From an uncultured Mycoplasmatota bacterium (lineage in GTDB: Bacteria > Bacillota_I > Bacilli_A > RF39 > UBA660), in assembly GCA_948467605.1 (NCBI GenBank), contig CAOKET010000012.1:1-45086 (forward strand): 45,086 nt of DNA, written 5' to 3'. Under the pieces are notes generated by a model. It was not told the DNA's origin. It did no database searches and saw nothing but the letters and a program-made list of their open reading frames with translations. Below, piece by piece: positions 20,816 to 41,211 of the stretch (its first letter is position 1; every line of letters starts with the position of its first letter). The position numbers and the translations under genes were made by a program.

Positions 20816-20845
20816 ACTTTTACCTCCTTTATTATATTCTAAGAC

Positions 20846-20914
20846 TCGCCCTTAAAGGTACTTAAAAGTTTAAAAAACCTTATTGGTGCGGTTGTAGAGA
20901 GAGGCTCTACAAAC
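20846..20914 (-). promoter_or_regulatory. Ribosomal protein L21 leader RNA
   Basis: The minus-strand leader begins with a hairpin TTGTAGAG/CTCTACAA and continues ACCGCACCAATAAGGTTT, then AAACTTTTAAG, then GGGCGAGTCTTAGAAT before the rplU SD. The order hairpin, ACCGCAC, AAGG(U), GGGCGAGUC matches the L21 leader motif known from Bacillota, thought to bind L21 for autoregulation. Boundaries are approximate. Confidence 0.75.
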
Positions 20915-28868: not shown

Positions 28869-30431
28869 CTAATTTTGGGCTATAACTGATATAAGATTTT
28901 TTTCCCAATCCTTTAGTATCTTATATATATCTTCACTAGGTATTTCATTATATTTTAATCTTGCCTGAACTATTTTATTATCATGTATTTCAATAGTAAC
29001 AAAGGACTTATTTATATCTTCCTTTTTTCTCATGAGATAAATTTGACACTCATTATCAGCAATTCTTTCACAATAAGTACGCACACAATTCTTCTGTTGC
29101 CTACTTTCTTCAACTAAATCTTTTATTGATGAAACTGGATAAATTACATAATTATCATCTTCATACATATTTAATAATAAAGCCTTAGATAAACTACCTA
29201 TCTTATCTTCTATAACTGGATCTAAAACAACCTCAATTTGATCAAATAATTCATCATGTGCTTTCCTCAAACTAACTGGATATAAAACTTTTTTATCAAA
29301 CAAATCTAAGTTCAATTCTTTAGCCATATAAATATAATCAAAATATTCATTAATATTACGTCTTGAAGGATCTAAACATATAAGATAATCTTTTAATACT
29401 TTTAAATCAACTTTATACGAGTTTACAAGTTCACTAATATGATCTGTATAAACTTCTAACCATTCACTAAAAAATTTTAAGACTTCGATATCAGTTGTAG
29501 GATATATCTGTAATATCTTTAAATCTCGCAGATTAATATTACATTCTACCATAAATGGTAGATATTTTTTATCCACCCCAAATATTTCTTTAAAACTTTT
29601 ACCACTTTTAAAAATGTTAGGAGCATGAAGTGCTAGGTCATATAATTTGTAGTTTACTAAATATTCAAATTGAGGATAATATAAAGGATTTAAGGTTAAA
29701 TCAGAAATACAAAAACTATTCTCTTTATTTAAGAATTCAGTTATTTGCCATAACCTACTATACCTATAAACTGTATTCTTTAAATCATATAAATTGTCTA
29801 TATATAAATATGATTTTTGATCCATTAAAATATAATCACATTCTTTATATAAATTAGAAGATTCTACCTTTTCATAAAATTTATCATAATCATTACTAAT
29901 TTCATTATAACAATTAACTAAAAAATTAAATGGTATATAAATATTGGTTTTTAAATTTATCAAACCATCTCTTTTTATAAAATATGAATGAGTATTACAT
30001 ACATTTAATACACTAGACTTATATGGTTTTGAATAAAAGGGACTGTCATAAGATATTTTTTCTTCTATACAATATAACCAAACATTTTTATTAACTACAT
30101 TAAAAACAAAATAATTACGAGTGTTATTTAAATCGCTATTATATATTTTCTTATCTAATATAGTGATATCGTTACTAATATATAGATCATCTATATTAGT
30201 TGTATGTTTTTTATGCTGTACTCCACAACCAGAACAGTAAAAAGTTTCATCTAACGGTTCTACGCATTTACCACAATAAAAATTACCAGTATTTTCTTCA
30301 TAAAAAACCATTTTATTAGATGTATTTATTATAAATTTTTTAATATCATCTGGTATATCTTCTTTATTTTTCCAACACGGTATATCCATTATTACTTGAG
30401 TAAAATCATCATTAAATTTTAATTGAAACAT
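28869..30431 (-). CDS. PcfJ-like protein with N-terminal zinc ribbon
   Basis: 520 residues. The N-terminus carries a likely zinc ribbon, C53-x2-C56 and C66-x2-C69. The long helical middle is unassigned. The C-terminal part has the PcfJ-type signature: a YPVSLRKAHDEL segment, then SRQQKNCVRTYCERIADNECQIYLMRK and FVTIEIHDNKIVQARLKYNE, in pieces. PcfJ is named from enterococcal conjugative plasmids and homologues are common on Bacillota chromosomes and mobile elements; its biochemical role is not established. It lies 87 bp upstream of the DUF262 gene on the same strand. SD AGGGAAG. A mobile or defence origin is inferred from family and neighbour. Confidence 0.7.
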   Translation of the reverse strand: MFQLKFNDDFTQVIMDIPCWKNKEDIPDDIKKFIINTSNKMVFYEENTGNFYCGKCVEPLDETFYCSGCGVQHKKHTTNIDDLYISNDITILDKKIYNSDLNNTRNYFVFNVVNKNVWLYCIEEKISYDSPFYSKPYKSSVLNVCNTHSYFIKRDGLINLKTNIYIPFNFLVNCYNEISNDYDKFYEKVESSNLYKECDYILMDQKSYLYIDNLYDLKNTVYRYSRLWQITEFLNKENSFCISDLTLNPLYYPQFEYLVNYKLYDLALHAPNIFKSGKSFKEIFGVDKKYLPFMVECNINLRDLKILQIYPTTDIEVLKFFSEWLEVYTDHISELVNSYKVDLKVLKDYLICLDPSRRNINEYFDYIYMAKELNLDLFDKKVLYPVSLRKAHDELFDQIEVVLDPVIEDKIGSLSKALLLNMYEDDNYVIYPVSSIKDLVEESRQQKNCVRTYCERIADNECQIYLMRKKEDINKSFVTIEIHDNKIVQARLKYNEIPSEDIYKILKDWEKNLISVIAQN

Positions 30432-30468: not shown

Positions 30469-30496
30469 AAAAAAGTTATAACATTATAACTTTTTT
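30469..30496 (-). terminator. Strong terminator of the Cys-rich mini-protein gene
   Basis: Perfect 13-bp inverted repeat, AAAAAAGTTATAA/TTATAACTTTTTT around a CA centre, giving a stem with six U at its end on either strand. It lies 30 nt after the stop of the Cys-rich gene. Confidence 0.85.
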
Positions 30497-30526: not shown

Positions 30527-30682
30527 CTATTCTTCTTCTTGACAACAATCACAGTTGCATTCTCTTTCTTCTTCTGAACAGCAATCGCAAGTTTCATCGC
30601 AGCAGCAATCTCTTTCTTCTTTAGTTTCTTTTTCATCACAACAACAATCTTCACAATTGCATGAACGTAATTCTTTTTCCAT
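30527..30682 (-). CDS. Cysteine-rich acidic mini-protein (metallothionein-like)
   Basis: 51 residues, 15 of them Cys and 20 Asp/Glu. Cys come in clusters: C8-x-C10, C13-C14-C15, C26-C27-C28, C32-x-C34-C35, C42-x-C44-x-C46-C47. Spacing in three near-repeats (CNCEDCCC, CCCDETCDCC, CNCDCC) separated by charged KEE/EEER linkers points to internal duplication. There are no aromatic residues or membrane segment. CxC and CC clusters with an acidic background suit a soft-metal or zinc store, similar in design to metallothioneins, but no known family is recognised. SD GGAGAG, own TATAAT promoter, 5' hairpin and strong terminator show that it is a real, probably well expressed single gene. Confidence 0.8.
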   Translation of the reverse strand: MEKELRSCNCEDCCCDEKETKEERDCCCDETCDCCSEEERECNCDCCQEEE

Positions 30683-30700
30683 TTTTATCTCTCCTTTTTT

Positions 30701-30717
30701 GTAATTTATCTAATTAC
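30701..30717 (-). promoter_or_regulatory. 5' UTR hairpin of the Cys-rich gene
   Basis: GTAATT-AGATA-AATTAC, a perfect 6-bp stem that would begin at the predicted first base of the transcript and ends about 10 nt before the SD. A 5'-terminal hairpin could protect the mRNA; inference. Confidence 0.4.
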
Positions 30718-30723
30718 ATTTAC

Positions 30724-30752
30724 ATTATATGTCTTTACTAAAATAAAGTCCA
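30724..30752 (-). promoter_or_regulatory. Promoter of the Cys-rich mini-protein gene
   Basis: TGGACT (30747-30752), 17-nt spacer, perfect TATAAT (30724-30729). It lies in the short gap after ruvB, so this gene need not depend on the ruv transcript. Confidence 0.65.
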
Positions 30753-33372: not shown

Positions 33373-33401
33373 AAAAAAACTGTTAATATAAATCAACAGT
33401 T
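33373..33401 (-). terminator. Intrinsic terminator of the dnaK operon (after dnaJ)
   Basis: Stem AACTGTT/AACAGTT (33379-33385, 33395-33401), 9-nt loop, seven U on the minus strand. The 5' arm overlaps the dnaJ stop (33400-33402). Confidence 0.8.
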
Positions 33402-34518
33402 AATTTGAGTTTGTACTAATAAATTCATTAAATGCTTTTATTTCTTTATTATTTTCTAAATCTTTACTATTTAGGCTTTCAAACATTTTCTTTTGTTCTC
33501 TATTAAGTTTTTCTGGAATTATTACTTTTATTACAACATACATATCTCCAACTCTTCTAGAGTTTACATCCTTTATTCCTTTATCTTTTAATCTATGTTT
33601 ATCCCCAGTAGAACTTCCTGCTGGAATAGATAAAACTACATTACCATAAATTGTAGGAACTTCCTTTTTACATCCTAAAACTGCCTCTTTTATTGTAATT
33701 GGAACTTCCACAATTATATCATTATTATTTCTTACAAATATTGGGTGTTTATCAACAATAAATTCAATATATAAATCTCCTGGTGCTCCACCATTTATAC
33801 CAGCCTCACCCTTACCTGCTAGTCTTAACTGATTACCAGTTGCAACTCCTTCTGGTATAGTTACAGTAATAGTTTTATTTTTCTTAACTCTTCCTGTACC
33901 ACGACATTCACTACAAACCTCACTATAAGTGTGTCCACTACCTTTACATTCTGGACATGTGGTTTTAGACATAAATGTACCTAGAAAAGAGCGTTGTTCC
34001 TCAACAATTACACCCTTACCCTTACATCTAGAACACTCCTTTTCATGAAAACCACCTTTTCCACTACATTTAGAACATTCCTCATCAACATTTAGTTGTA
34101 AATCTTTTTTACATCCAAATACTGCCTCCTTAAATGTAAGATGCATACTTATTACACTATCTCTACCTCTAGACTTTGAAGACCTTCCAGATCCACCAAA
34201 TCCAAATCCACCTCCGAATATATTGTCAAATATATCTGAGAAATCAAACCCACCAAAGTCATAACTAAATCCTCCACCTGATGAACCAGTTGGCCCTTCA
34301 AATGCTTGGTAACCGTATTTATCATATTTTGCTCTTCTATCTGGATCAGAAAGAATTGCATATGCCTCTTGGGCTTCCTTAAACTTTTCAGCAGCATTCT
34401 CCTCTTTAGAAACGTCTGGATGATATTTCTTAGCCAATTTACGGAATGCACTTTTTATTTCTGCCTCAGTTGCAGTTTTAGGTACTCCAAGTACCTCATA
34501 ACAATCTCTTTTATTCAT
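33400..34518 (-). CDS. dnaJ: Chaperone DnaJ (type I Hsp40)
   Basis: Co-chaperone that stimulates DnaK ATPase and binds unfolded clients. 372 residues: J domain at 1-70 with the HPD motif (KKYHPDVS), Gly/Phe region ([17 protein letters not shown]), four zinc motifs [24 protein letters not shown] and CSECRGTG, then the two client-binding barrels. SD AGGTGATG. It is the last gene of the heat-shock operon and is separated from dnaK by pepF, which is unusual. Confidence 0.98.
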
Positions 34519-34533
34519 TTTACATCACCTAAC

Positions 34534-36324
34534 TTAAAAATATAAACTTTTAAATTCCTCTAACAATCCTTCAAACATCTTAATAGCACTCATTACAACT
34601 TCTTTACTTTCTATATCAACTCCAGCAATTTTTAATTCATTAACTGGATAATCACTACCACCTGAACTTAGGAATTTAATATAGTTTTCAACTGCACCTT
34701 CTTCGTTATTAAGTATACTATTTGCTATATAACACGCTGAAGATAAACCAGTTGCATATTGATATACATAAAAATCGTTATAAAAATGTGGGATTCTTTC
34801 CCATTCATATTTTATTTCCTCATCACATATAACATCAGGACCAAAATACTTTTCTACTAACTCATAATATTTACTACATATTAAATCAGAAGTTAATATT
34901 GTTCCCTCACTATTTAATTTATGCATATCACGTTCAAATTCTGCAAACATTGTCTGTCTAAATATTGTTCCTTTAAATAATTCTAATAATTCATTTAACA
35001 CATATAACTTTTCATTTTTATCATTACTTGTTTTAAGTAAATGATTATACATTAATAATTCATTTACAGTAGAGGCAACTTCTGCAACAAATATTTTATA
35101 TGATGAATATATGTAATCGTTATTTTTACAAGATAAATATGTATGAACTGAATGCCCTAGTTCATGTGCTAAAGTAGATACATCATCTAAAGAACCTTCA
35201 AAGTTTAAAAGTACATATGGATTTGTATCATAAAATCCACTTGAATAAGCACCACTTCTCTTACCCTCATTATAATATACATCTATCCATCTTTCATCAA
35301 ATGCCTTATTTATTATTTTAATATAATCTTCACCTAAAATACTTAATGAATCAAGTACAATATCTTTTGCATCTTCAAAACTATACTCTTTCTCTAAATT
35401 TTGAACTAATGGAGTATATATATCATATAAATGTAGTTCATCTAATCCGAGTGCTTGCTTTTTCATTTTATAATAATCATATAAAACATCTAAATTACTA
35501 CTAACTGTATCAATTAAATTATCATATATTTTTATATCAACATTATCAGCATAAAGTGATGAGGCAATACTACTATTATAACCTCTAAGTTGAGATATTT
35601 CTCTTAAATATTCAACATTACCTCTAAATGTAGTTGCAATAGTATTTTTATAATCTGAATATACTTTATGCATAAGTTGAAAAGCATTTTTTCTAGTAGT
35701 TCTATTTTTACTCATCATATATTTACTATAGTTACTTTTAGTAAGTTCTTGAAACTCACCGTTACCATCTTCAAAACTTCCAAATTTAATATCTGAGTTT
35801 GTTAATGTTGAATATATTTCACTAGATGCATCTAAAGTTTTAGAAAATTTTGATATTACTTCTTCTATTTCTTTACTTAAATAGTGTTTTTTATATCTAA
35901 ATAATTGTTCAAAATAAAACTTATATTTTTCTAAAGCCTTATTCTCATTACAAAATTCTAATATATGATTGTAATCTTCCTTCAATATAGTTGGTTCAAA
36001 AAAAGAAACAAGTGAAGAATATAAAGTAAGTAAGTTTTCCTGTTTTTGATACCTTTCTTGATTTTTAGTATCTAATGTATCTGAATCATAGTTAAGATGA
36101 GCATAGTAAAATAATTTATATAGTCTTCTTTCTAAAGATTCATTTTCTTCTAAAAATGATAATAAATCATCACTTGATTTTACTAAAACTTCTTTATATT
36201 TTGTTATATTATAAACTTCTTTACTTAATGCTTCAAACTCTTTATCCCAATCTTCTTCGGTTTTAAAAATTGGTGTTAAATCCCACTTACTACTATTATC
36301 AATCTCATTTCTTTTTTTTGCCAT
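34534..36324 (-). CDS. pepF: Oligoendopeptidase F (M3 zinc peptidase)
   Basis: A cytosolic metallopeptidase that trims peptides of about 7-17 residues. 596 residues, with the M3 zinc motif HELGHSVH (in DVSTLAHELGHSVHTY) and third ligand Glu in FVAEVASTVNELL. Other family segments are DIYTPLVQ, KRSGAYSSGFYDTNPYVLLNF in pieces, and FYVYQYATGLSSA. Length is normal for PepF. SD GGAGAT. It lies between dnaK and dnaJ with gaps of 53 and 15 bp and no intervening strong terminator, so it probably shares the heat-shock control. Coupling a chaperone with a peptide-clearing enzyme is sensible, but the arrangement is not the usual one. Confidence 0.95.
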   Translation of the reverse strand: MAKKRNEIDNSSKWDLTPIFKTEEDWDKEFEALSKEVYNITKYKEVLVKSSDDLLSFLEENESLERRLYKLFYYAHLNYDSDTLDTKNQERYQKQENLLTLYSSLVSFFEPTILKEDYNHILEFCNENKALEKYKFYFEQLFRYKKHYLSKEIEEVISKFSKTLDASSEIYSTLTNSDIKFGSFEDGNGEFQELTKSNYSKYMMSKNRTTRKNAFQLMHKVYSDYKNTIATTFRGNVEYLREISQLRGYNSSIASSLYADNVDIKIYDNLIDTVSSNLDVLYDYYKMKKQALGLDELHLYDIYTPLVQNLEKEYSFEDAKDIVLDSLSILGEDYIKIINKAFDERWIDVYYNEGKRSGAYSSGFYDTNPYVLLNFEGSLDDVSTLAHELGHSVHTYLSCKNNDYIYSSYKIFVAEVASTVNELLMYNHLLKTSNDKNEKLYVLNELLELFKGTIFRQTMFAEFERDMHKLNSEGTILTSDLICSKYYELVEKYFGPDVICDEEIKYEWERIPHFYNDFYVYQYATGLSSACYIANSILNNEEGAVENYIKFLSSGGSDYPVNELKIAGVDIESKEVVMSAIKMFEGLLEEFKSLYF

Positions 36325-36346
36325 ATTATCTCCTTTATCATAATTA

Positions 36347-36366
36347 GAGTTCTATTGCTAGAACTC
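36347..36366 (-). other. Hairpin between dnaK and pepF without a U-tract
   Basis: GAGTTCTA/TAGAACTC, a perfect 8-bp stem with a 4-nt loop in the minus-strand RNA. It is followed by TAATTATG rather than U residues, so it is not a standard intrinsic terminator. It could be an RNA processing or stability element that lowers pepF-dnaJ relative to dnaK. Confidence 0.55.
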
Positions 36367-36377
36367 CATTATTTTTA

Positions 36378-38198
36378 TTATTTTTCTTCGTATTCTGCAT
36401 CCTTAACTGATGAATCTTTTGCATCATCACTAGAAGTATTTTCTTGTCCTGCTTGATTTTGTTTAGCAGCCTCTTCATATACTTTAGTTGCAAAGGCCAT
36501 TGCTTTTTCATTTAGTTTATCTTTTTTAGACTTAATATCATCTAAATCATCTTTAGATAAAGCCTCTCTTAAGTCTTTAATTAGATTTTCTGCTTCTTCT
36601 TTATCTTTAGAATCTATCTTACCATCTAAATCTTTAATTGCTTTTTCAGTTGCAAATATTGTTTGATCTGCTTCATTTCTAAGATCTGCTTCTTCTTTAC
36701 GTTTTTGATCTGCTTCACGATTTGCTTCTGCTTCTTTTACCATTTTATCTATTTCATCATCAGTAAGATTAGTATTTGATGTAATTGTTATTGCTTGTTC
36801 TTTTCCAGTACCTAAATCTTTTGCTTTAACATTAACTATACCATTAGCATCTATATCAAAAGTAACTTCGATTTGTGGTATTCCACGAGGTGCTGGTGGA
36901 ATATTTGTAAGTTGAAATCTTCCTAAAGTCTTATTATCGCTAGCCATTGTTCTCTCACCTTGTAAAACATGTATATCAACTGCTGGTTGATTATCTGCTG
37001 CTGTTGAGAACACTTGTGATTTACTTGTAGGTATTGTTGTATTACGTTCAATTAATACAGTCATAACATTACCCATAGTTTCAATTCCTAAAGAAAGTGG
37101 TGTTACATCTAGTAATACTATATCATTAACATCTCCAGTTAAAACTCCACCTTGTATAGCAGCACCCATTGCAACAACTTCATCAGGGTTAACTCCCTTA
37201 CTTGGTTCTTTACCTAACTCTTTCTTAATTAATTCTTGTACCTTAGGAATACGAGTAGAACCACCTACTAATAATACTTTATCAATATCTTTAGAAGAAA
37301 GTTTAGCATCTTTTAATGCTTTTCTAACAGGTTCAAGTGTACTTTCTAATAAATCATCAATTAAACTTTCAAATTTAGATCTACTTAAAGAAGTCTCATA
37401 ACTTATAGGTGAACCATCTTTTTGTGCTAAGAATGGTAATGAAATTTGAGTTGTAGTCATATTACTTAAGTCTTTTTTAGCCTTTTCAGCAGCATCTTTT
37501 AAACGTTGCATAGCCATTTTATCACTAGATAAATCGATACCATGTTCACTCTTAAATTCATTAACTAACCAATCTATAACTCTTTGATCAAAGTCATCTC
37601 CTCCTAAATGGTTATTACCACTAGTAGATTTAACTTCAAATACACCATCACCTATCTCAAGAATAGATACATCAAATGTACCACCACCTAAATCATAAAC
37701 AAGAATTTGTTCAGTTTTATCTTGTTTATCAAGACCATATGCTAGTGCTGCTGCTGTTGGTTCATTTATAATTCTTTCAACTTCAAGTCCAGCAATCTTT
37801 CCAGCATCTTTTGTTGCCTGACGTTGTGAATCATTAAAATATGCTGGTACTGTAATAACTGCTCTAGTAACTTTTTCACCTAAGTAACTTTCCGCATCTG
37901 CCTTCAATTTTTGAAGGATCATCGCACTAATTTCTTGTGATGAATATTTTTTGCCATCAATATCAACTTTATAATCAGTTCCCATATGTCTTTTTATAGA
38001 ACTAACTGTTTTTGGATTAGTTAAAGCACCACGCTTTGCAGTTCCACCTACTGTTATTTCTCCATCTTTTCCAAATGCTACTACTGATGGAGTAGTTCTT
38101 TCTCCTTCAGCATTGGCAATAACTTTTGATTCTCCACCTTCAAATATACTTACACAACTATTAGTTGTACCTAAATCTATACCTATTATTTTACTCAT
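36378..38198 (-). CDS. dnaK: Chaperone DnaK (Hsp70)
   Basis: The ATP-driven chaperone. 606 residues: phosphate-1 motif [33 protein letters not shown], phosphate-2 [14 protein letters not shown], adenosine motif [14 protein letters not shown], linker [16 protein letters not shown], then substrate-binding domain and lid with the Lys/Glu-rich tail ending in DAEYEEK. Everything is intact. Third gene of the CIRCE-controlled operon, 20 bp after grpE. SD AAGGATTGA. Confidence 0.99.
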
Positions 38199-38218
38199 AA
38201 TTTAATCAATCCTTTCTT

Positions 38219-38767
38219 TTATTCACTAACCTTAACCATCGCTGGTCTAATTACTCTGTCCTTTAACAAGTACCCTTTTTGTAATACCTCTAAAACCATT
38301 CCAGGCTCAACACCATCTTTATGTTCTAGCATAAGCCCTTGATGATATACTGGATCAAAAGGTTTATTACTACCATCTATTGGTATAACTTCAAACTTTT
38401 CTAATACAGAATTCAAATGACAATATATCATTTTTACCCCTTCAGAATATTTAAGTGTTGCCTCATCCTTACATTCATTAAAAGCATTTATCGCACGTTC
38501 AAAATTATCCATTATTGGTAATATTTCCTTAACTATATCTTCATTACTATATTTTAAGATTTTAGCAGTTTCTTCATCTTTTCTTTTCTTAAAATTTAAT
38601 ACTTCTGCTTTTTCTCTTAAAACATCTTCTTTCAAACTTTTTATTTCATTTTCCTTTTCAGTAATAATACCCTCTAATTCTTTTATTCTTTTATCAGAGT
38701 GTTTATCTTTCTTCTTTTTATCTTGCTTTTCTTCATCATCTTTTATTATTTCTTCATTATTTTCCAT
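38219..38767 (-). CDS. grpE: Nucleotide-exchange factor GrpE
   Basis: Releases ADP from DnaK. 182 residues: acidic disordered N-terminus, long coiled-coil dimerisation helix (about 30-80, KRIKELEGIITEKENEIKSL in part), IMDNFERAIN four-helix part and the C-terminal beta-wing ending VLQKGYLLKDRVIRPAMVKVSE, in part. The ATG at 38767 is chosen because GAGGAGG lies about 6 nt upstream; the ATG at 38797, which would overlap hrcA, has no SD. Confidence 0.97.
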   Translation of the reverse strand: MENNEEIIKDDEEKQDKKKKDKHSDKRIKELEGIITEKENEIKSLKEDVLREKAEVLNFKKRKDEETAKILKYSNEDIVKEILPIMDNFERAINAFNECKDEATLKYSEGVKMIYCHLNSVLEKFEVIPIDGSNKPFDPVYHQGLMLEHKDGVEPGMVLEVLQKGYLLKDRVIRPAMVKVSE

Positions 38768-38786
38768 ATCTTCCTCCTCAAGAACA

Positions 38787-39794
38787 TTAATCCTCATTTA
38801 TATTTTGGATAATATAATCAAGCATTGCAACCGCTCTATCATACTCCATCCTTTTAGGTCCTATTAACGCTATAGTTCCTTCTTCACCATTTACATTGTA
38901 TTTTGTTTTTATTACAGTAACATCATCATCAATATTATTCTCATGACCAATATAAATATTAATTCCATTACTATCCTCTTTTATGGATTCAACTATGTCT
39001 TTATCTTCAAATTTATCCATAATCTTTCTTATTTTATCAACTGAATCAAATTCAGGTTGTTTAAGAAATTTATTTTTACCAACAAAATACATATTACTTT
39101 TATTAGCAAAATCATTGAAAACATTATAAAATACATTAAATATTTCTTCCTGTTGTTTAATTTTTTCACCAATTATCGGTTTAATGTCATATTCTAATCT
39201 CTGACTAACCTCATCAATTAATGTTCCATAAAGCATCTTATTAATAATCTCAGTCACTTGCTTAATCTCATTTAGTGATATATTTTCCTCTATAACTATA
39301 TTTTTATGTTCTACATGACCTTTATCAGTTATAACAATTGCAACTATTTTATTCTGTTCAATTGGAAGTATTTCAACTCTCTCTAGTCTACTTATACTAG
39401 CAGAAGGGCCAAGTACAACAGATGTATAATTTGTCATCTCAGATATTATTTCTAGGCTTTTGCCAATCGCATCAGTAATCTGCAATGACTTATTATGAAA
39501 TATTTGTTGAAGTTTAAGCATGTCTTCACCAGTCATATCTTTAGGTTGCATTAGATTATCAACGTAATATCTATAACCGACCTCAGATGGTATTCTACCT
39601 GATGATATGTGTTCTTTCTCAAGATAACCCATAGCCTCTAACTCTGCCATTTCACTTCTTACTGTAGCAGAAGATACATCAAGTGAATCACATATTGATT
39701 TAGAACCAACTGGATGAACAGTCTTAATATATTCCTCAACAATTATCTTTAAAATTTCTTTTTGTCTAGAAGTTATTATTACCACCTCCAGCAC
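38787..39794 (-). CDS. hrcA: Heat-inducible repressor HrcA
   Basis: Represses class I heat-shock genes by binding CIRCE, and is released when GroEL is occupied. About 330 residues: N-terminal winged helix with TSRQKEILKIIVEEYI, PVGSKSICDSLDVSSATVRSEMAELEAMGYL (in part), the SSGRIPSEVGYRYYVD motif and the C-terminal dimerisation/GAF-like domain. The start is unclear. The GTG at 39794 gives the coordinates here, but it has no upstream SD. The SD GGAGGTGG (39782-39789) instead points at AUA codons at 39779 or 39776, just before TSRQKE. First gene of hrcA-grpE-dnaK-pepF-dnaJ, with one CIRCE overlapping its start. Confidence 0.95.
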   Translation of the reverse strand: MLEVVIITSRQKEILKIIVEEYIKTVHPVGSKSICDSLDVSSATVRSEMAELEAMGYLEKEHISSGRIPSEVGYRYYVDNLMQPKDMTGEDMLKLQQIFHNKSLQITDAIGKSLEIISEMTNYTSVVLGPSASISRLERVEILPIEQNKIVAIVITDKGHVEHKNIVIEENISLNEIKQVTEIINKMLYGTLIDEVSQRLEYDIKPIIGEKIKQQEEIFNVFYNVFNDFANKSNMYFVGKNKFLKQPEFDSVDKIRKIMDKFEDKDIVESIKEDSNGINIYIGHENNIDDDVTVIKTKYNVNGEEGTIALIGPKRMEYDRAVAMLDYIIQNINED

Positions 39795-40323: not shown

Positions 40324-41211
40324 ATGTCAAATAAATGTAATATATGTCCAAGAAAATGTATGATAGATAGAACGAAAAATAAGGGTTTTTGTGGTGAAAC
40401 ATACGATTTAGTTGTCGCAAGAGCATCTCTTCATATGTGGGAAGAACCATGTATATCTGGTAATAATGGAAGTGGAACAGTTTTTTTCTCTGGATGTAAT
40501 TTAAAATGTGTGTATTGTCAAAATTACAATATAAGCACTAAAAATGATGGAAAACAAATAACTATAGAAAGACTTTCAGAAATATTTCTAGAACTACAAG
40601 AAAAACAAGCATTAAATATAAACTTAGTAACGCCAACTCATTATGTATCTCAAATAATAGAAGCATTAAAACTCGCAAAAAATAAGGGTTTAACTATTCC
40701 AATTATATATAATAGTAGTGGTTATGAAAGTGTAGATACCTTAAAAAAATTAGAAGGGTTAATAGACATATACCTACCAGATTTTAAGTACTATGATGAT
40801 ATATATAGTATTAAGTATTCAAATGCTCCAAATTATTTTAATATCGCATCCAATGCTTTATCAGAAATGGTAAGACAAGTTGGAAATCCAAAATTTGATA
40901 AAAACAATATAATAAAAAAGGGAGTAATAGTAAGACATCTATTACTACCTGGATTAATTAATGATTCAAAGAAAATACTAAAATATTTATATGAAACATA
41001 TAAAGATAATATTTATATAAGTATTATGAATCAATATACCCCACTTCCACATGTAAAAAAATATAAAGAATTAGATAGAAAAATAACTGATAAAGAATAC
41101 GATGAACTAATAAATTACGCAATTGATTTAGGTATAACTAATGGATTCATACAAGAAGGAGAAACTTGTAAGGAAAGTTTTATACCTGATTTTAATAATG
41201 AAGGAGTATAA
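40324..41211 (+). CDS. Radical SAM protein, PflX-like (COG1313)
   Basis: 295 residues. The radical SAM [4Fe-4S] motif is CNLKCVYC within FSGCNLKCVYCQNYNIS. An extra N-terminal cysteine group, CNICPRKC plus C38 in NKGFCGE, is typical of the PflX/COG1313 branch and may hold another cluster. Further family parts are LVTPTHYVSQI, IYLPDFKYYDD, GVIVRHLLLPG and SIMNQYTPLPHV. The branch is related to pyruvate-formate-lyase activases, but its substrate is not known; no pfl gene is adjacent. Its stop meets the stop of the rluA-like gene on the other strand with no base between them. Confidence 0.85.
   Translation: MSNKCNICPRKCMIDRTKNKGFCGETYDLVVARASLHMWEEPCISGNNGSGTVFFSGCNLKCVYCQNYNISTKNDGKQITIERLSEIFLELQEKQALNINLVTPTHYVSQIIEALKLAKNKGLTIPIIYNSSGYESVDTLKKLEGLIDIYLPDFKYYDDIYSIKYSNAPNYFNIASNALSEMVRQVGNPKFDKNNIIKKGVIVRHLLLPGLINDSKKILKYLYETYKDNIYISIMNQYTPLPHVKKYKELDRKITDKEYDELINYAIDLGITNGFIQEGETCKESFIPDFNNEGV

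Follow-up and report, generated by a model that had tools for sequence, protein, structure and literature searches.

The window, that is, the whole 45,086-nucleotide stretch of DNA analysed here, is contig C12 of a draft genome (1.38 Mb, 91% complete), the only genome that represents its genus. The gene ruvB is followed in this region by a short Cys-rich ORF, a PcfJ-like gene and a GmrSD-type gene. The ORF (30527-30682, minus strand, ATG to TAG) encodes an acidic peptide of 51 amino acids, MEKELRSCNCEDCCCDEKETKEERDCCCDETCDCCSEEERECNCDCCQEEE, with 15 cysteines (29%), exactly as stated in the initial annotation. The translation also confirms the annotated spacing of the cysteines (CxC, CCC, CCC, CxCC, CxCxCC). 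They fall into three clusters on the same strand: CNCEDCCC (residues 8-15, 30638-30661), CCCDETCDCC (residues 26-35, 30578-30607) and CNCDCC (residues 42-47, 30542-30559). The peptide has 21 acidic and 6 basic residues, a pI of 4.05, a net charge of -15 (K+R minus D+E) and a mass of 6.0 kDa. Aromatic residues F, W and Y are absent, in agreement with the annotation, and so is histidine. This composition and the Cys motifs are far outside chance: this ORF has 15 cysteines in 51 amino acids of stop-free sequence, whereas no other such stretch of the window exceeds 9 and none in dinucleotide shuffles (n=60) exceeds 8. The gene is present in a single copy in its own genome.

The DNA of the ORF is TGY/GAR-rich, and because of this the other two frames across the stretch are open as well. 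Openness alone is therefore weak evidence for a gene. Better evidence is provided by the start codon with its Shine-Dalgarno box and by the hairpins on both sides. The box GGAGAG (30689-30694, minus strand) lies six nucleotides before the ATG, at the proper spacing and as annotated. The hairpin that had been placed at the predicted transcript start was indeed found in the 5'-UTR (TGTAATT-AGATA-AATTACA, 30700-30718, minus strand). It has arms of 7 bp, a loop of 5 nt and a folding energy of -3.6 kcal/mol (z = -6.6), and comparable hairpins appear in 10 of 1000 shuffles of the UTR. Elsewhere in the genome the arms recur exactly only once, with a loop of 8 nt, in a non-coding AT-rich contig, and this palindrome was rejected as a candidate regulon operator.

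The annotated sigma-70-like promoter TGGACT-17-TATAAT is present at 30724-30752 (minus strand; 10/12 matches in a promoter scan), its -35 box starting just past the ruvB stop codon. However, such matches are not rare in AT-rich DNA. One match of this quality was found against 3.9 expected in shuffles, so that a promoter match of this kind is to be expected by chance at this base composition, and the suggestion of high expression is unsupported. On the other side of the gene, about 30 nt past its stop codon and before the PcfJ-like gene, there is an AT-rich hairpin of 12-13 bp with a T-run (30469-30496, minus strand). A hairpin of this length was seen in none of 300 local shuffles. It corresponds to the previously proposed 13-bp terminator, although it lies outside the interval for which the terminator had been proposed. 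It contains a single G-C pair and was not called by a consensus terminator scan, which demands such pairs; as a terminator it is thus plausible, though poor in G-C pairs.

Coding constraint was assessed using internal repeats, orthologues to align being absent. The near-repeats encoding DCCCDE, AGATTGTTGTTGTGATGAAA and AGATTGCTGCTGCGATGAAA, differ at three nucleotides, and all three differences are at third codon positions and synonymous. All 12 of the best self-matches of the gene are in frame. These repeats favour selection on the cysteines, but the sample is very small, and a sequence with a triplet structure tends to match itself in frame anyway. Further, the cysteine codons (7 TGC, 8 TGT) include 47% TGC, compared with 9% in the neighbouring genes, and therefore the gene is not a recent or simple expansion of TGT. 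The Asp and Glu codons retain the AT-rich choice usual for this genome.

One can consider the possibility that the ORF is non-functional, being low-complexity TGY/GAR-rich DNA that is open by chance. It would agree with the three open frames, with the chance-level promoter and with the lack of homologues in all searches, the source being a single draft genome of 91% completeness. However, it would not account for the correctly spaced Shine-Dalgarno box before an ATG, the synonymous character of the repeat differences, the codon usage of cysteine, or the UTR and 3' hairpins that are rare in shuffles. We regard this possibility as rather improbable, and the ORF as a probable tiny gene.

A short ORF rich in cysteine codons, with a terminator-like hairpin within some 30 nt and a co-directional gene beyond it, also resembles an attenuator. 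Polycysteine leader peptides exist in mycobacteria. In this case the 15 codons would sense the charging of Cys-tRNA, and the hairpin would attenuate the PcfJ-like gene at 28869-30431. However, in the predicted fold the hairpin arms are not paired with the Cys codons, and an antiterminator alternative is absent (z = -0.71). The PcfJ-like gene has no link to cysteine metabolism, and the ordered arrangement of CCC and acidic clusters exceeds what a leader peptide needs. Such regulation seems very unlikely here.

The PcfJ-like protein (PF14284; minus strand), encoded directly downstream of the Cys-rich gene, has a possible N-terminal zinc ribbon. The GmrSD-type protein (PF03235; 26931-28781, minus strand) resembles the PADLOC models HEC-06/Orf5 and is possibly a defence gene in a variable slot. 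Indeed, in 29 relatives with ruvB the next gene is often one that we take to be queA-like, as recognised by eye (MKT-DF-ELPE-LIAQTP), and otherwise one of various unrelated genes. Therefore the slot after ruvB holds variable cargo, and the Cys-rich gene is lineage-specific cargo in it. The same neighbourhood bears on another interpretation, in which the peptide is the precursor of a ribosomally made, post-translationally modified peptide. The ORF is short and Cys-rich, and the gene of a radical SAM protein lies some 10 kb from it (40324-41211). However, no maturase or transporter is adjacent, the neighbours being RuvB and the PcfJ-like protein; there is no division into leader and core, and the chain is strongly acidic, with cysteines along its whole length. 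This makes a modified-peptide precursor extremely improbable.

Homology searches detected no orthologue of the peptide in 145 genomes of the same family or 385 genomes of the same order, and no homologue in a single scan across 85,000 species or in viral contigs, plasmids and phages. A few matches at E > 0.02 were dismissed as chance, having no Cys-rich reading frame. No family in Pfam or NCBIfam matches the peptide, and no PDB sequence does at E <= 10, so the earlier statement that it belongs to no recognisable family holds. The pattern CCC[DE]..CC occurred in 16 of 141 genomes of the family, where the only hit in a small gene rich in Cys and acidic residues was the gene of the window. For CCC[DE]..CCC[DE] in 392 genomes drawn at the phylum level, there was, besides this gene, one match, whose gap does not preserve an open frame with acidic linkers. 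Thus the Cys pattern is not conserved in relatives at the family-to-order level, an outcome that the initial annotation had counted against its own interpretation. The test is weak, since the genus is represented by one genome and such Cys clusters vary in length among proteins of the CD1247 type (below). The absence of orthologues at every distance searched also counts against a metallothionein-like peptide. The AlphaFold model of the peptide is uninformative (pLDDT 57.8), which is not surprising when one sequence is the sole input and the fold may depend on metal.

Acidic modules with CCC blocks were then sought at the DNA level. The pattern for CCC[DE][DE]..CCC[DE] (TGT-TGY-TGY-GAN-GAN ... 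TGY-TGY-TGY-GAN), scanned over 85,000 species, yielded 33 loci, in 29 of which the two blocks share a frame; at least 19 of the loci encode proper-looking proteins. A heavy-metal translocating P1B ATPase of Methanosphaera (L085:2110-4353, minus strand; TIGR01525, 602 bits) has the N-terminal extension CCCDDDDCCCDDD..CNCDDCC. FKBP/SlyD-like proteins of Prevotellaceae (PF00254; L063, L073) end in CCC tails, and GrpE of Candidatus Ureaplasma intestinipullorum (PF01025; L068:6979-7932, plus strand; 46 cysteines in the protein) has a long Cys-rich acidic N-terminal extension. In Clostridia, CD1247-type proteins (NF045650 confirmed for L060) carry the module internally. In seven of them the Cys blocks stay in position, and the number of blocks and the linkers vary. 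Small, apparently membrane-anchored proteins of Clostridia have acidic CCC tails (L067:4940-5179 and L072:507-812, plus strand; L075:3399-3752, minus strand; L088:4026-4406, plus strand). Three of these (L067, L072, L075) had no match in NCBIfam, and L072 and L075 had none in Pfam. The literature was searched for CD1247 and for small Cys-rich proteins of bacteria, and nothing relevant was found.

As these loci were chosen by the pattern, their similarity in Cys and acidic residues is by construction, and independent evidence comes only from the domains that accompany the module. Those with a known role belong to metal handling or to chaperones; most of the loci, namely those of the CD1247 type and the apparently membrane-anchored ones, encode proteins without known function. 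The C-terminal region of SlyD binds metals, in H. pylori via His and Cys residues (PMC7840056). The peptide has no significant alignment with the ATPase extension, and the matches, judged by sequence, are a similarity of kind rather than alignable homology. Given the constant blocks and variable linkers of the CD1247-type proteins, a free-standing module might lose alignable homology quickly.

Among known proteins, the metallothioneins SmtA/BmtA and MymT are likewise small, Cys-rich, free-standing and devoid of aromatics, with CxC and CC groups; however, no profile or sequence match to them was obtained in Pfam, NCBIfam or PDB sequences. SmtA-like metallothioneins have Cys9His clusters (PMC7387436), whereas this peptide has 15 cysteines, CCC runs and no histidine, and is very acidic. 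The gene of SmtA-type proteins is adjoined by a divergent SmtB regulator, whereas here the neighbours encode RuvB and the PcfJ-like protein. Proteins with the CD1247 N-terminal domain share the CCCDDD..CCCD blocks, low complexity and variable length, but in them the module is a linker between that domain and a zinc-ribbon-like end (CPxC..CPxC), whereas here it is the whole protein; the peptide has no NF045650 match in NCBIfam. The Cys/His/Asp extension of the Methanosphaera ATPase shares CCCDDDDCCC and CNCDDCC motifs but is a part of a membrane pump, and the similar SlyD-type acidic CCC tails, such as CCCDEDPNCCCDDDPDCCC, are fused to an FKBP domain. The small proteins of Oscillospiraceae and Clostridia (L067, L072, L075, L088) have acidic CCC clusters and no known family, but their N-termini are hydrophobic and the window peptide is soluble.

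By analogy with these proteins, the peptide is probably (with a probability of about 0.6) a lineage-specific, soluble cytosolic metallothionein-like metal buffer. This is the best-supported reading, and the proposal of a metallothionein-type peptide is supported in part, by the occurrence of the acidic CCC module on the P1B ATPase and SlyD-like FKBPs: since such modules sit on metal-handling proteins, a metal-thiolate role is suggested. It agrees with the low mass, the high share of cysteines in CxC, CCC and CxCC groups and the lack of aromatics, all typical of metallothioneins, and with the Shine-Dalgarno box and hairpins that bracket the ORF. We infer that the peptide is expressed. Its cysteines form five groups, adjacent or alternating, that are embedded in acidic linkers, and their 15 thiolates would form clusters around several metal ions of soft or borderline character, presumably Zn, Cu(I) or Cd; the carboxylates would keep the chain soluble. 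The peptide would thus buffer or detoxify metal, and scavenging of oxidants would be secondary.

The reverse emphasis, a thiol redox buffer or oxidant sink whose CC and CxC pairs would alternate between the dithiol and disulfide states during oxidative stress, would be consistent with the adjacent Cys pairs, the strong negative charge and the 15 reducible thiols. Scavenging of reactive species is also within the capacity of metallothioneins (PMC7387436). However, a thioredoxin-like CxxC motif does not stand out, and the module partners of known role are a metal pump and chaperones of a metal-binding type, not redox enzymes. We consider a primarily redox function unlikely.

On the best reading, the peptide works like a metallothionein, but it falls outside the known bacterial metallothionein families. 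More tentatively, the acidic CCC-[DE] modules may constitute an undescribed, fast-evolving metal-thiolate class, reaching over pumps, chaperones, CD1247-type and apparently membrane-anchored proteins in Clostridia, Prevotellaceae, a ureaplasma and Methanosphaera. The window peptide would then be its free-standing soluble form and a new class of bacterial metallothioneins; this is possible, but we do not consider it the likely case. If the peptide does bind metal, reduced-genome bacteria may have metallothionein-like peptides without detectable homology to known metallothioneins, and homology searches would therefore undercount them. The set of proteins with the module (the heavy-metal pump, SlyD-like FKBPs, GrpE and the CD1247 type) provides a testable hypothesis for several unannotated Clostridia proteins rich in Cys and acidic residues.

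The metal physiology of the host may be relevant. No heavy-metal P1B ATPase above the cut-off was found in the window's genome, whereas such a pump is encoded in 13 of the 14 control genomes; this absence is provisional, the genome being 91% complete. There are two CDF exporters, one of them directly preceded by an ArsR/SmtB metalloregulator (the pair at L105:1378-2636, plus strand, on another contig). In the absence of a P1B ATPase, sequestration would be useful alongside the CDF pumps. The promoter of the ArsR/CDF pair contains a palindrome, TTGAATATATATTCAA, which by inspection is a probable operator. No copy of it is present at the promoter of the Cys-rich gene, a point against the metallothionein-like reading, although a different regulator is possible.

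No CIRCE element was found in the window at up to 3 mismatches. The region 33400-39794 (minus strand) contains a cluster of hrcA, a 192-amino-acid ORF in the grpE position, dnaK and dnaJ, with pepF (oligoendopeptidase F) between dnaK and dnaJ. A ribosomal protein L21 leader (RF00559, 59.2 bits) is located at 20832-20903 on the minus strand.
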